The translations under genes were made by a program, and so were the position numbers. Below are positions 36,481 through 51,599 of a stretch of 64,000 bases of DNA, one piece after another (the first letter of the stretch is position 1; each line of letters starts with the position of its first letter). The notes under the pieces are model-generated. The model was not told the origin of the DNA, ran no database searches, and worked only from the letters and a program-made list of their open reading frames with translations. The DNA is from Pandoraea capi. Lineage in GTDB: Bacteria; Pseudomonadota; Gammaproteobacteria; Burkholderiales; Burkholderiaceae. The stretch lies in NCBI RefSeq assembly GCF_902459735.1, contig NZ_CABPRV010000010.1, forward strand, positions 62,001 through 126,000, read 5' to 3'.

Positions 36481-37452
36481 TCAGCGCTTGGCCGTGTCGG
36501 TCATGAACTTGCCGGTCGGCGCTTCGCCGCCCTTCTTCTGGCGACGCGTATTGCCATCCAGCCCGCCATCCACCGCCCACTCCGCGAACACCGTCGGTCC
36601 CGGTTCAAAATCACGCGGCTGCCACTCCGGCGTAAGAATATCCTCGTCCGCGTAGTACTCGATGAGGGCGCCGCACGGGTTTTTGAAATACCAGAAGTAC
36701 GCCGACGAAATCGGGTGACGGCCCGGTCCTAACTGGGTTTCCCAGCCACAACGGTCGATGTGCATGCCGCCGCCGAACACTTCGTGGATATCGCGCACGG
36801 TGAATGCCACGTGGTTCAGACCGCGTTTGCCGTTGGGTAGCGCCAACAGGAACAGATCGTGGTGGCCGCCATGCGGCGCGCAGCGCATGAAGGCGCCGCG
36901 ATCCGGATATCGGTCCGACAACTCGAAGCCGAGCTTGTCTTCGTAGAACGCCTGCGTCGCCGCCAGCGCATTCGTGAAGAACACCACGTGACCGACTTCG
37001 ATCGGTTGCGCACGCTCATACACCGGACTCGGCGTATTCACGCGTTGCGCCGGCAGTCCCCACGGATTGGTCGGCGCGCCCTGCACGTCGAGCGCCCGCT
37101 TGCTCGTCACCGTCACACGCACGGCCAGCCCGTTTGGGTCGATACAGCCCGTCGCGCCGTCCTTGAAGAAGTAACCCGGCTGATCGGCGAGACGGTCGGC
37201 AACGGCGGCGACTTCCTCGGCCGTCGTCACGCCCCATGTCACCTCGCGCAGCGTGGGGCCGTCCTCCATGGCGGGCGGCAACGACGGATCGTCGTGGCGC
37301 ACCGCCAGCACGCGGCAGCCGTTGAGCGTTTCGAAGTGCGCGCCATTGGCGTCGGCCGCCACTTCGGTCAGGCCCCAGTCGGCGAGAAACCGGCGGCAAG
37401 TGCCGAGGTCGGTGACCCCGTAGATAATTTGTTCGATGCCAAGAATCGTCAT
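36481..37452 (-). CDS. VOC-family (extradiol-type) ring-cleavage dioxygenase
   Basis: Two-domain vicinal-oxygen-chelate protein of 323 residues, similar in layout to type I extradiol catechol dioxygenases. The N-terminal module is IEQIIYGVTDLGTCRRFLAD; the C-terminal one has VGHVVFFTNALAATQAFYED (His), KRGLNHVAFTVRDI (His) and CGALIEYYADEDI (Glu), a plausible 2-His-1-carboxylate metal site. A glyoxalase-like isomerase cannot be excluded. It is the last gene of the 17-gene operon, 35 bases after the reductase. Inference: ring opening after hydroxylation by the Rieske enzyme. Confidence 0.85.
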   Translation of the reverse strand: MTILGIEQIIYGVTDLGTCRRFLADWGLTEVAADANGAHFETLNGCRVLAVRHDDPSLPPAMEDGPTLREVTWGVTTAEEVAAVADRLADQPGYFFKDGATGCIDPNGLAVRVTVTSKRALDVQGAPTNPWGLPAQRVNTPSPVYERAQPIEVGHVVFFTNALAATQAFYEDKLGFELSDRYPDRGAFMRCAPHGGHHDLFLLALPNGKRGLNHVAFTVRDIHEVFGGGMHIDRCGWETQLGPGRHPISSAYFWYFKNPCGALIEYYADEDILTPEWQPRDFEPGPTVFAEWAVDGGLDGNTRRQKKGGEAPTGKFMTDTAKR

Positions 37453-37486
37453 GACAGTCTCGGGAAAAGGTTCTGGGTCAGGAGAT

Positions 37487-38452
37487 TCACAGATCCAGCG
37501 TCAGGCGGTCGCCTTTGCAACCGGACACGCAGATCATCATGACCTTGTTCGACGCGCGCTCCGATGCACTGAGCACCGAGTCGCGATGATCGGGACATCC
37601 GTCGAGCACGCGCGTCTCGCACGCGCCGCACACGCCTTCCATGCAGCTATGTTCGGCGTCGATACCGGCAGCAAGCAAGGTGTCGAGCAGCGTCGCACCG
37701 GCCGGCACCGCGATGTCCTTGCCGGACTTCGCGAGGGTCACGACATAGCCTTCGGACGTTGCCGGCGGCGGCGCGTCCGGCGCGGCGGCGAAGCGCTCGA
37801 TGTGCACGTTGGCGATACCCGTCTCTGCACACGCTGCTTCGAAGGCATCGAGCATCACGCCGGGGCCGCAGCAGTACGCGTGCGTGCCTGCCGGTTGGTC
37901 CGCCAGAAATGCCGCGAGCGATGCGGGCTTGCCGTCATGCTGCTCGTCGAAGTGATACGTCACATCGCCGCCCAGCGCGTTCAACTCATCGACGAAGGCC
38001 GCTTGCGACGCCGTGCGCGCGCAGTACAGCAGTTTGACGTTGCGCCCCAGCGCGCGCAGACGGCGATACATGCACAGGATCGGGGTGACGCCGATACCGC
38101 CCGCCACCAGCACCGTGTGCTCGGCGCTCTCCATGAGTTCGAAGTGATTGCGCGGCTCGGAAATGTCCAGCGTCATGCCGACGCGGAAGTTGTCGTGGAT
38201 GAAACGCGACCCGCCCCGGCTCTTCGGGTCGGCCAGAATGCCGAGCACGTAGCGGTTAGTCTCACCGGGCGCATTCACGAGCGAGTAGCTGCGCACCAGT
38301 CCGCTCGGCAAATGCAGATCGATGTGCGCCCCCGGCGTGAAGGCAGGGAAGGCCGTGGCGCTGCCCGCCACAGGCACGAGTTCGATGCTCATGATGCCTG
38401 CCGCCTCGAAGCGAAGCGTGCGCACCATTGCCGACAGGTTTGACTTGCTCAT
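37487..38452 (-). CDS. PDR/VanB-type oxidoreductase (Rieske oxygenase reductase)
   Basis: Reductase of 321 residues carrying electrons from NAD(P)H through flavin and a C-terminal [2Fe-2S] ferredoxin domain to a Rieske oxygenase. Flavin-binding motif: SGLVRSYSLVNAPGE (RxYS). Nucleotide-binding motifs: VLVAGGIGVTPILCMYRRL and YCCGPGVMLDAF. The plant-type ferredoxin cysteines are in EHSCMEGVCGACETRVLDG and a Cys near the C-terminus (MMICVSGCKG). Located between the Rid gene and the VOC dioxygenase. It is the only such reductase in the window and may serve both Rieske oxygenases. Confidence 0.93.
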   Translation of the reverse strand: MSKSNLSAMVRTLRFEAAGIMSIELVPVAGSATAFPAFTPGAHIDLHLPSGLVRSYSLVNAPGETNRYVLGILADPKSRGGSRFIHDNFRVGMTLDISEPRNHFELMESAEHTVLVAGGIGVTPILCMYRRLRALGRNVKLLYCARTASQAAFVDELNALGGDVTYHFDEQHDGKPASLAAFLADQPAGTHAYCCGPGVMLDAFEAACAETGIANVHIERFAAAPDAPPPATSEGYVVTLAKSGKDIAVPAGATLLDTLLAAGIDAEHSCMEGVCGACETRVLDGCPDHRDSVLSASERASNKVMMICVSGCKGDRLTLDL

Positions 38453-38497
38453 AACACCGCTCTCTGATGTTGCTGATCTTCTTGATGGCCGCGCGGG

Positions 38498-49867: not shown

Positions 49868-49893
49868 GATGCATTCCTTATGACGTCGTGCGC

Positions 49894-50676
49894 TTACGCG
49901 ATGTTCATGGCGGCGCGCGGCACGTAATGCAGTGCGCGACGTTCCAGCCAGACCACGGCCGCGTAGGCGGCAATACCAATGACGGTCAGCCCGGCGATGG
50001 CGACGAACACCATCGCGGTATTGCCCTGCCCTTCGCCGTACACGAGCAGATAGCCCAGCCCACGGTCGCCGCCGACGAGTTCACCGACGGTCACACCGAT
50101 CACGGCCAGCGTCGAGGCGATGCGCAGACCAGCAAAGAGCGCCTGCATGGCCGACGGAAACTCGACGAAGCGGAAGATCTGCCAGCGACGGCCGCACAGT
50201 GCGCGCACCAGATTGACCATGTCCGGATCGACCGAGCGCACCGCGCCCAGCACGTTGATCATCACGGGGAAGAAGACGATCAGCACGGCGACGAGGATCT
50301 TCGGGTAGATCGTGTAGCCCATCCACATCACGAACAGCGGCGCGAAGGCCACCTTCGGCGCGATCTGCAACGCGAGGATGTACGGCGAGAGCATGGCTTC
50401 GGTCGAGGGCGAGAGGCCGAGAATCACGCCGATCAGCACGCCGAGCGCCGAACCGATCACAAAGCCTGCGATCACTTCGAGCGCCGTCACGCCGATGTGC
50501 AGCCAGAGGTTTTCGACCTCGAACATGCGCACGCCTTCGATCAGGGTCGACGAGAGCTTCGGCAGCACGAATTCGGGTACGCCGAACGCCGTCGGGCCCC
50601 ATTGCCACACGGCCGCGAAGATCAGCAACAGCAAGACGCTGCCGGCGGTCAGTTGCGTTTTGGAGAGGGATTTCAT
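49894..50676 (-). CDS. ABC transporter permease (SsuC/TauC type)
   Basis: Inner-membrane permease of 260 residues from ATG 50676 (MKSLSKTQLTAGSVLLLLIF); the very long upstream frame is a shadow of the ATPase. About six hydrophobic helices. The EAA loop region reads RALCGRRWQIFRFVEFPSAM and is followed by GLRIASTLAVIGVTVGELVG, typical of the sulfonate/nitrate/taurine group. It pairs with the ATPase at 50730 and with the binding proteins at 40649 and perhaps 32076. Confidence 0.92.
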   Translation of the reverse strand: MKSLSKTQLTAGSVLLLLIFAAVWQWGPTAFGVPEFVLPKLSSTLIEGVRMFEVENLWLHIGVTALEVIAGFVIGSALGVLIGVILGLSPSTEAMLSPYILALQIAPKVAFAPLFVMWMGYTIYPKILVAVLIVFFPVMINVLGAVRSVDPDMVNLVRALCGRRWQIFRFVEFPSAMQALFAGLRIASTLAVIGVTVGELVGGDRGLGYLLVYGEGQGNTAMVFVAIAGLTVIGIAAYAAVVWLERRALHYVPRAAMNIA

Positions 50677-50729
50677 AGCGGAGATTCCAGTGTCTTGTGC
50701 GTAGTTCGCAGGTGCGTGCGGCAGTGCGA

Positions 50730-51599
50730 TCAACCGAGGTGATCGTCGCGACCGACCTTGAGCAGTTCCATCAGATGCGCGACGTACTCGTTCATCCCGG
50801 CCTGCTTGCGGCGTTCGATGGGGTTGTCGCGATGCGGCAGATCGACGGTGATTTCTTCGATGATCGTGCCCGGACGTTCGCTCATCACGAACACACGATC
50901 CGACAGCGCAATCGCCTCGGCGAGGTCGTGGGTAATCATCAGCGCGGTCTTGCCCTCGGAGGCGAGCATCTGCGCGAGATCCTGCTGGAGCACCATCTTG
51001 GTCTGCGCGTCGAGCGCGGAGAACGGCTCGTCCATGAGCAGCACGTCCGGCTCGACAGCCAGCGTGCGTGCGAGCGCCGCACGTTGGCGCATGCCGCCCG
51101 ACAACTGGTGCGGATAGTGATTCTCGAATCCCTTGAGATGGCAGCGCGCGAGCAGCGCTTTGGCGACCTCTGCGCGCTCGGCCTTGCTGCGGCCGCGGAT
51201 CTGCATGCCCAACTCGACGTTCTTCTGAATCGAGCGCCACGGCATGAGCAGATCTTTTTGCAGCATGAACGCGACTTGTTGCGACGGCCCGCGCACCGGC
51301 TTGCCGGCGAGCGTCACCTGACCTTCGCTCGGGGCATAGAGGCCGGCGCCCATGTTCAGCAGCGTGCTCTTGCCGCAGCCGCTCGGGCCGATCAGCGAGA
51401 CGAACTCGCCGGCCTTGATGCCGATGGACACGTTCGAGACGGCCGTCATCTCGCCCTTGCCCTGGCGATTTTTGAACCGACGCGTGACGCCGCGGTACTC
51501 GATAGCGAACGGCAACGGCGTTGCCGCCGGCTGCGCCTGACGTGCGTCGGCATAAGCCTCGGCTACGTTTGCGTCCTTCAACTGAATCGACCTGAGCAT
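50730..51599 (-). CDS. ABC transporter ATP-binding protein (SsuB/TauB type)
   Basis: ATPase of 289 residues; first gene of the operon. Walker A is GPSGCGKSTLL (about residue 73), Q-loop MLQKDLLMPWRS, signature LSGGMRQRAALARTLA, Walker B VLLMDEPFSALDA, H-loop MITHDLAEAIAL. It has an N-terminal extension of about 30 residues before the core. It energises uptake through the permease at 49894. Promoter and operator lie at 51698-51762. Confidence 0.94.
   Translation of the reverse strand: MLRSIQLKDANVAEAYADARQAQPAATPLPFAIEYRGVTRRFKNRQGKGEMTAVSNVSIGIKAGEFVSLIGPSGCGKSTLLNMGAGLYAPSEGQVTLAGKPVRGPSQQVAFMLQKDLLMPWRSIQKNVELGMQIRGRSKAERAEVAKALLARCHLKGFENHYPHQLSGGMRQRAALARTLAVEPDVLLMDEPFSALDAQTKMVLQQDLAQMLASEGKTALMITHDLAEAIALSDRVFVMSERPGTIIEEITVDLPHRDNPIERRKQAGMNEYVAHLMELLKVGRDDHLG

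Follow-up and report, generated by a model that had tools for sequence, protein, structure and literature searches.

The kynurenate ('quinoline') route of Pseudomonas has been known biochemically since the 1960s, and a tracer paper of 1961 reportedly belongs to that body of work; its substrate, kynurenate, is 4-hydroxyquinoline-2-carboxylate, and kynurenic acid is a product of tryptophan. The pathway proceeds through ring dihydroxylation, dihydrodiol dehydrogenation, extradiol cleavage, reduction, decarboxylation and aldehyde oxidation. A search of the open-access literature, with subscription papers outside its reach, returned neither genes for the breakdown of kynurenate nor an assigned function for the gene cluster considered here, a minus-strand run of 17 genes that extends from position 51599 to position 36481 of a 64,000-nucleotide stretch of the 5.85 Mb genome of Pandoraea capi (assembly GCF_902459735.1, contig NZ_CABPRV010000010.1, positions 62,001 to 126,000; hereafter the window). 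The substrate of this operon is probably some nitrogen heteroaromatic acid and, more tentatively, the run is read as an operon, presumably inducible, for the catabolism of a quinoline-2-carboxylate, the likeliest being kynurenate or a relative such as xanthurenate or quinaldate. The first-pass annotation held that the gene combination matched no named pathway; it does resemble kynurenate degradation, though no genes assigned to that pathway were found.

Families were confirmed for all 17 genes, and with the gene starts chosen the intergenic spacings range from -8 to +97 bp (in order 53, 26, 51, 97, 34, -4, -8, -8, 13, 74, 13, -4, 73, 23, 45 and 34 bp), which bears out the original description of 17 same-strand genes with overlaps or short gaps. 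Both of the 'small proteins' in that description are present and can now be told apart, since one lacks a Pfam family and the other is an HTH_62 protein. The operon genes and the features upstream of them are as follows:

50730..51599, minus strand: ABC transporter ATPase of NitT/TauT type (PF00005; NF040729 and PRK11248 below their cut-offs)
49894..50676, minus strand: ABC transporter permease (PF00528)
49076..49867, minus strand: SDR1, short-chain dehydrogenase/reductase (SDR), candidate dihydrodiol dehydrogenase and core gene (PF13561)
48467..49024, minus strand: cupin, remotely similar to oxalate oxidase and quercetinase (E ~4e-4; PF07883)
47452..48369, minus strand: alpha/beta hydrolase, PcaD-like among others (PF00561)
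46506..47417, minus strand: IclR regulator, nearest to the PcaR/PcaU/PobR subfamily model (below cut-off)
45703..46509, minus strand: SDR2, candidate reductase (NF005468, 438 bits against a cut-off of 266)
44058..45710, minus strand: thiamine-diphosphate (TPP) enzyme, candidate 2-oxo acid decarboxylase (NF005470, 933 bits against a cut-off of 495)
43247..44065, minus strand: predicted aspartate dehydrogenase (AspDH; PF01958; NF009827, 366 against 226 bits; N-x-H motif)
41737..43233, minus strand: aldehyde dehydrogenase (ALDH; PF00171)
40649..41662, minus strand: NMT1/THI5-like substrate-binding protein (PF09084)
40291..40635, minus strand: small protein 1, with a predicted alpha/beta fold but without firm relatives (matches no Pfam family at gathering score)
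40073..40294, minus strand: HTH_62 protein ('recombinase-like HTH'), which travels with the Rieske gene (PF20552)
38968..39999, minus strand: predicted Rieske oxygenase of VanA type (PF00355, PF19112)
38498..38944, minus strand: Rid-type imine/enamine deaminase (PF01042)
37487..38452, minus strand: flavin/2Fe-2S reductase, presumed partner of the Rieske oxygenase (PF00111, PF00175)
36481..37452, minus strand: predicted two-domain type I extradiol dioxygenase (VOC; H155, H214 and E265 invariant in 9/9)
51700..51715: putative operator palindrome GTTTCATTGGTGAAAC, upstream of the operon
53128..53143: putative second copy of the operator, some 120 bp ahead of the porin gene
51899..53008, minus strand: porin, named from its translation, probable regulon member (relative near the cluster in 68/72 non-Pandoraea loci)
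53506..54663, plus strand: FAD monooxygenase like 6-hydroxynicotinate 3-monooxygenase by similarity; co-localises with the cluster
54718..55578, plus strand: second IclR-family regulator (PF01614)

Conserved copies of the gene neighbourhood were looked for among at least 522 relatives of the thiamine enzyme, of which 80 named loci were compared and 442 were not examined. Eight of the 80 are from Pandoraea and 72 from Burkholderia, Paraburkholderia, Caballeronia or Trinickia, and a gene was scored as present at ≥33% identity over ≥50% of the query within stretches of about 21 kb. All 80 have the thiamine enzyme together with most of the core, the closest of those examined being the Pandoraea loci, with thiamine enzymes 95-98% identical. 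Outside Pandoraea, SDR1, cupin, hydrolase, IclR, SDR2, TPP enzyme, AspDH, ALDH and VOC each occur in 72/72 loci, and the Rieske and HTH_62 genes in 70/72. Furthermore, nine core enzymes keep one order on one strand (Rieske-SDR1-cupin-hydrolase-SDR2-TPP-AspDH-ALDH-VOC) in 66/66 of the full-length loci among these 72, the six shorter loci having been left out of the order test. In a wider sample of the order the thiamine enzyme is found at E≤1e-100 in 16/399 genomes. A nine-row profile reaches E≤1e-160 in 15/398 genomes of a sample of the phylum, and NF005470 exceeds its cut-off in 1/274 genomes of the class, namely the window genome. Within the genus, AspDH is present at E≤1e-148 in 21/25 genomes, window genome included.

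Meanwhile, uptake and electron-transfer genes are swapped between lineages and the core is mostly fixed. The ABC genes, small protein 1, Rid and the Pandoraea-type reductase were found in 0/72 of the non-Pandoraea stretches, and the replacements there are a Rieske ferredoxin (69 loci), an FAD ferredoxin reductase (69) and an MFS transporter (67), with a porin relative in 68. Rid was seen only in Pandoraea and one other genome (G034). As a unit, therefore, the 17-gene set first described holds for its core and not for its transporter, small protein 1, Rid and reductase, which are replaceable. Transporters vary by lineage between MFS, TRAP, NitT-type ABC and Bug proteins (classes assigned partly by eye), and those seen suit organic anions rather than free amino acids. 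A largely fixed catabolic core with exchangeable uptake and electron-transfer parts looks like a dedicated pathway. A sulfonate substrate, suggested by the NitT/TauT-type similarity, was rejected: the ATPase, permease and binding protein all score below sulfonate and taurine cut-offs, and the transporters of other lineages are unrelated.

Much of the kit also occurs in records of Paracoccus MA, Novosphingobium SA1, Klebsiella pneumoniae, Acinetobacter baumannii, Nitratireductor and Pseudosulfitobacter, and carriers include soil and clinical bacteria. The Klebsiella thiamine-enzyme gene had no DNA match in the complete genomes of E. coli. A Vibrio nigripulchritudo plasmid carries the kit without a Rieske gene (0 matches in the 351,712 bases of the plasmid record, which alone was searched), some core genes are missing within the stretches fetched from G470, G432 and G475, and the thiamine enzyme stands without the core in stretches of G029, G464, G557, Variovorax SRS16 and a second G432 copy. 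The cluster of genome G880 (L197) also has a phenol-hydroxylase-like monooxygenase, TRAP-transporter-like genes and a sulfatase between its two halves.

In the VOC protein, H155, H214, E265, H197, H198, R245, H246 and Y255 are invariant in nine diverse homologues (9/9), and presumably correspond to the residues that bind iron or serve in acid-base catalysis in homoprotocatechuate 2,3-dioxygenase, an enzyme to which a PDB search found weak similarity. With two VOC domains and an apparent 2-His-1-Glu iron site, the protein is predicted to be a type I extradiol dioxygenase; at 62 bits against the TIGR02295 cut-off of 321 it is, by that model, not a homoprotocatechuate dioxygenase. The Rieske protein (PF00355 at 72.9 bits, PF19112 at 48.5 bits) shows C-x-H and C-x-x-H by eye in its translation, so that cluster motif and catalytic domain mark it as a probable Rieske non-haem oxygenase, and its solved relatives are all distant. 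For the thiamine enzyme the next-best models are PRK08266 and 5-guanidino-2-oxopentanoate decarboxylase, both below cut-off. PDB searches with the operon enzymes matched no characterised enzyme of the kynurenate route and returned other enzymes.

At the level of families only, the enzymes match kynurenate degradation step by step. The porin and ABC transporter would import the acid, and the Rieske oxygenase, fed by the reductase, would form a 7,8-dihydrodiol that SDR1 would oxidise to the 7,8-diol. Cleavage of the benzene ring by the VOC dioxygenase would then give a dihydroxypicolinate with a -CH=CH-CO-COOH side chain, after which a reductase, for which SDR2 is a candidate, would saturate the side chain, the thiamine enzyme would remove CO2 and ALDH would oxidise the resulting aldehyde to 5-(2-carboxyethyl)-4,6-dihydroxypicolinate. 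A TPP decarboxylase and an ALDH make sense here because cleavage of a bicyclic diol leaves a 2-oxo acid side chain. In the weakest part of the scheme, which follows the ALDH step, hydrolase and cupin, joined in some species by the NicC-like monooxygenase, may open the pyridine ring to give a C5 dicarboxylate and iminosuccinate, and AspDH and Rid would convert iminosuccinate to aspartate, or to oxaloacetate and ammonia. Atom bookkeeping balances at each step (the nine-carbon picolinate plus two H2O equals glutarate plus iminosuccinate), and iminosuccinate as a product would give a reason for AspDH and Rid to be in the operon. The route first sketched for these genes (uptake, Rieske hydroxylation, SDR dehydrogenation, extradiol cleavage, decarboxylation and aldehyde oxidation) thus fits the gene families, each assigned step being a prediction.

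AspDH carries PF03447 and PF01958, scores 366 against 226 bits with NF009827 and 471 against 479 with NF009826, and has an N-x-H motif, the histidine of which we take to be catalytic, that aligns with the solved L-aspartate dehydrogenases 2dc1 and 1j5p; on domains and motif it is predicted to be an L-aspartate dehydrogenase. One study purified AspDHs of K. pneumoniae and Delftia, characterised both as aspartate dehydrogenases and cited those of Pseudomonas aeruginosa and R. eutropha as further examples (PMC5554190), the proteins of that study not being equated here with the cluster-encoded AspDH genes of the same species. AspDH is also annotated in seven distant alpha- and gammaproteobacterial clusters which, together with its presence in 72/72 loci and the characterised AspDHs, indicates that the pathway may yield aspartate or iminosuccinate. 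Its presence in nearly all versions, the NicC-like and IorAB-type enzymes described below and the organic-anion transporters point to a nitrogen heteroaromatic acid.

If the substrate were instead an aromatic amino acid, dihydroxylation and extradiol cleavage beside the side chain followed by C-C hydrolysis would release L-aspartate, which AspDH and Rid would convert to oxaloacetate. The ubiquitous AspDH would then act on its textbook substrate, and an extradiol enzyme with an alpha/beta hydrolase is the classical meta-cleavage pair; no hydratase or aldolase for the other half of the molecule was seen in the operon, however, the TPP enzyme and ALDH would have no clear role and the transporters seen are organic-anion types, making this quite improbable. 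More improbable still is an upstream module in which the AspDH-like protein, TPP enzyme and ALDH turn an amino acid into a keto acid and then an arylacetate for the Rieske and VOC enzymes to attack. The three genes adjoin in most clusters and VOC weakly resembles homoprotocatechuate dioxygenase, but PMC5554190 describes AspDHs of the family as aspartate dehydrogenases and, with the N-x-H motif retained as well, a bulky aromatic amino acid is an unlikely substrate.

A third alternative dispenses with nitrogen altogether, AspDH and Rid belonging to general nitrogen metabolism and merely sharing the operon. Rieske, SDR, VOC, TPP and ALDH enzymes alone would suit a bicyclic oxygen heterocycle, Rid is confined to Pandoraea and G034, and AspDH is missing from some of the clusters fetched. 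In PAO1 the AspDH gene PA3505 and its neighbours presumably form the same operon in the same gene order. A transposon study predicted PA3505, the P. aeruginosa AspDH, to be essential in three of four host-like media (PMC9732424). Against this stands AspDH in every one of the 72 non-Pandoraea named loci and in the seven distant clusters, and a nitrogen-free substrate appears improbable.

The system exceeds the 17 genes and takes in the porin, the FAD monooxygenase, the second IclR gene and a distant AraC-iorAB operon. The closest solved protein to the product of 53506-54663 is 6-hydroxynicotinate 3-monooxygenase (5eow, 268 bits, E 1e-78), and orthologues of it with 57-71% identity belong to the cluster or its surroundings in G644, Nitratireductor, Vibrio, Cupriavidus (at a distance of 8-9 kb and truncated where the stretch stops) and, within a single other family, the genomes G989, G907, G880 and G994. 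The gene co-localises with the cluster in three proteobacterial classes. By eye, no nic-like gene was seen in the window between 54.7 and 64 kb, where only the first gene (IclR) was profile-searched. The 20-kb stretches of G880, G994 and G907 had suggested that the monooxygenase replaces the Rieske module, an idea dropped once each of the three proved to carry Rieske genes at a distance of about 12-13 kb from its thiamine-enzyme gene.

The distant operon comprises genes for an AraC regulator, for a 2Fe-2S subunit and for a molybdopterin subunit whose N-terminus looks twin-arginine-like by eye, the two subunits being presumably akin to IorAB and NicAB. In four loci of other genera, namely those of Paraburkholderia CNPSo 3274, P. 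nodosa, Cupriavidus campinensis and G453 (L146, L148, L163 and L061), iorAB orthologues with 60-79% identity are no more than about 5 kb away from the core. The shared operator and this co-localisation independently support a molybdenum hydroxylase in the pathway in some species, and in Pandoraea IorAB might convert a non-hydroxylated precursor, for example quinaldate to kynurenate. The suspicion of a nitrogen-bearing intermediate, voiced in the first-pass annotation, gains support from the linkage of the NicC-like monooxygenase and from the IorAB-type hydroxylase under the same operator. Both enzymes would equally suit many other azaarenes, such as a hydroxylated benzo-fused pyridine or those quinoline and isoquinoline carboxylates that do not belong to the kynurenate group. 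Caballeronia NK8, G432 and G348 (L162, L184 and L192) also have a second type of molybdenum enzyme, of the xanthine-dehydrogenase family, adjoining either HTH_62-Rieske or the thiamine enzyme. A C4-N unit ending as aspartate or iminosuccinate would nevertheless come most simply from a ring carboxylated next to the nitrogen, and another azaarene is rather unlikely.

A perfect 8-bp inverted repeat lies at 51698-51717, between porin and operon, and its core, GTTYCA-N4-TGRAAC, recurs at 53128-53143 upstream of the porin; the palindrome is a predicted operator that an IclR protein of the operon may bind, and the operon would be inducible. Operator loci were taken from L074 onward where the first operon gene could be placed with ≥150 bp upstream, two plasmid loci being left out, and a best match of ≥9/12 was found within 350 bp upstream of the first operon gene in 89/90 of them, against 8.2% of random stretches, a figure to be taken as descriptive, since the window was already in view when the motif was picked and the loci are relatives of one another. 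In most Paraburkholderia the operator takes the form GTTCC-N6-GGAAC and is centred on no other position than -40 to -42; the best matches of Burkholderia and Caballeronia usually fall ≥300 bp upstream, where they may serve the divergent porin. Exact sites number four in each of four Pandoraea genomes. In the window genome these lie before the operon, before the porin, upstream of the AraC operon and inside a coding sequence; the fourth, AraC-linked site is intergenic, about 34-46 bp upstream of the aligned AraC start in 4/4 Pandoraea genomes searched, with arms kept and a varying spacer. Most of the additional sites in Paraburkholderia and related genomes look like chance and were set aside. 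A copy in G1046 (L233, 1501-1516) lies about 20 bp upstream of a chemoreceptor-like gene, and the Caballeronia NK8 cluster contains a methyl-accepting chemotaxis gene. A promoter and terminator scan of the locus did not rise above shuffled sequence (promoters 0 against a mean of 2.4, terminators 13 against 12.3).

Several observations weigh against kynurenate or a relative as the substrate. Linkage to tryptophan or kynurenine genes, which would help the case without being indispensable to it, was not supported: tryptophan dioxygenase (TDO) is on another contig in the window genome, and among 22 cluster-bearing genomes it occurs in 13 and within about 11 kb of the cluster in one (G880), where TDO adjoins a kynureninase-like gene (by eye) and unrelated genes separate it from the cluster. 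VanA-type Rieske enzymes are often mono-oxygenases or demethylases, and the choice of SDR2 as reductase is a guess. Rid and the FAD monooxygenase were found in 0/72 of the non-Pandoraea named stretches; AspDH was not detected in the stretches fetched from G650, G432 and G026 (the last an 8-kb contig), and neither AspDH nor ALDH was detected in the pNK84 copy of Caballeronia NK8. The predicted essentiality of PA3505 is not expected of a purely catabolic role. The gene pair iorAB is near the core in only 2/80 named loci, so its link to the cluster is real but not general, and the closest PDB entry to IorB is an aldehyde dehydrogenase subunit (8gy3, 1e-54), which makes ring hydroxylation likely, not certain; the other type of molybdenum enzyme is closest to 4-hydroxybenzoyl-CoA reductase. 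Finally, one of the four operator sites lies inside a coding sequence, and a reversed-pattern control gave 1-3 sites per Pandoraea genome against the four real ones.

The HTH_62 gene tends to accompany that of the oxygenase. PF20552 scores over its cut-off at eight loci in seven of 150 genomes of the order, and in 8/8 of these Burkholderiales loci, partly through common descent, the gene is directly upstream of this type of Rieske gene; a ninth match, below cut-off (G355), has no adjoining Rieske gene. On the Paracoccus, Nitratireductor and Pseudosulfitobacter plasmids three ABC genes stand between the two, and one contig of G034 (L191, 1395-6564) has a tandem pair of HTH_62-Rieske units. The predicted structure has a confident three-helix C-terminal part and a low-confidence N-terminus. 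The name implies a recombinase, whereas the genes around it hint at a protein that partners or regulates the oxygenase. Small protein 1 was modelled at a mean predicted local distance difference test score (pLDDT) of 72.7 and had no PDB match at E≤0.001.

Elsewhere in the window, a second Rieske gene (LigXa-like) and a second binding protein, 51-59% identical to the operon's substrate-binding proteins of three other Pandoraea loci, lie at 32076-34586 on the minus strand. Next to them, at 34663-35667 on the plus strand, is a divergently oriented AraC gene that shares about 50% identity with its counterpart in the distant iorAB operon. The same arrangement adjoins the operon in G012 and was not seen in G005 within the 3.3 kb fetched beyond the GPx gene. 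The open reading frame at 57408-58637 (plus strand) resembles a cytochrome P450 by eye, no test tying it to the operon, and between 4000 and 18000 a GC dip to 56-61% around a tRNA-Leu gene (6608-6692) is genomic-island-like.

Members of related clusters have surfaced in published data without a function being proposed in the open-access literature searched. The labels of A. baumannii A1S_0956-0958 match AspDH, ALDH and TPP enzyme, with values of about 2.2-2.4 in a mucin study (PMC5757984); A1S_0945, 0946 and 0956 are tabled as expressed only in biofilm cells (PMC3758355); the promoter upstream of A1S_0945 served as a reporter (PMC4328036); ABUW_2942, 2943 and 2946 appear in work on vitamin B12 whose authors class them with sulfur acquisition (PMC12892962); and ABUW_2953, perhaps of the A. 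baumannii cluster, appears in a saccharin study (PMC12081710). Aspartate dehydrogenase is named among the essential genes of a metabolic model for treatment with colistin plus sulbactam (PMC13231871), and a further paper regards PA3501-PA3504 as unique to PAO1 (PMC5069748). Kynurenic acid is described as a bioactive compound found in the host and in the diet (PMC11354673), which would lend wider interest to organisms that remove it. The boldest form of the proposal, possible though doubtful, is that the operon is the missing bacterial kynurenate gene set, that the A. baumannii and K. pneumoniae versions consume a host tryptophan metabolite and that HTH_62 is a dedicated Rieske partner. If true, it would provide genes for a textbook pathway that has none in the open-access literature searched; even for another acid, the shared operator, swapped transport parts and AspDH ending would describe a coherent catabolic system to which that literature assigns no function.

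Set beside known systems, the operon resembles the kynurenate pathway in the order of reaction types, with predicted roles for AspDH and Rid. Nicotinate degradation (NicAB, NicC) shares a NicC-like monooxygenase and an IorAB-type hydroxylase with the operon's neighbourhood and regulon; to our knowledge its route has no Rieske enzyme, extradiol VOC, TPP enzyme or AspDH. The type I extradiol operons hpa and bph share the VOC enzyme with conserved ligands, the alpha/beta hydrolase and ALDH; unlike them, the operon has AspDH and HTH_62 and no hydratase or aldolase was seen in it, its TPP enzyme presumably standing instead of their 4-oxalocrotonate-type enzymes. The clusters of A. baumannii (A1S_0945-0958) and K. 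pneumoniae have the same core set as the operon, with a ferredoxin, an FAD reductase and an MFS transporter where the operon has its reductase and ABC transporter.

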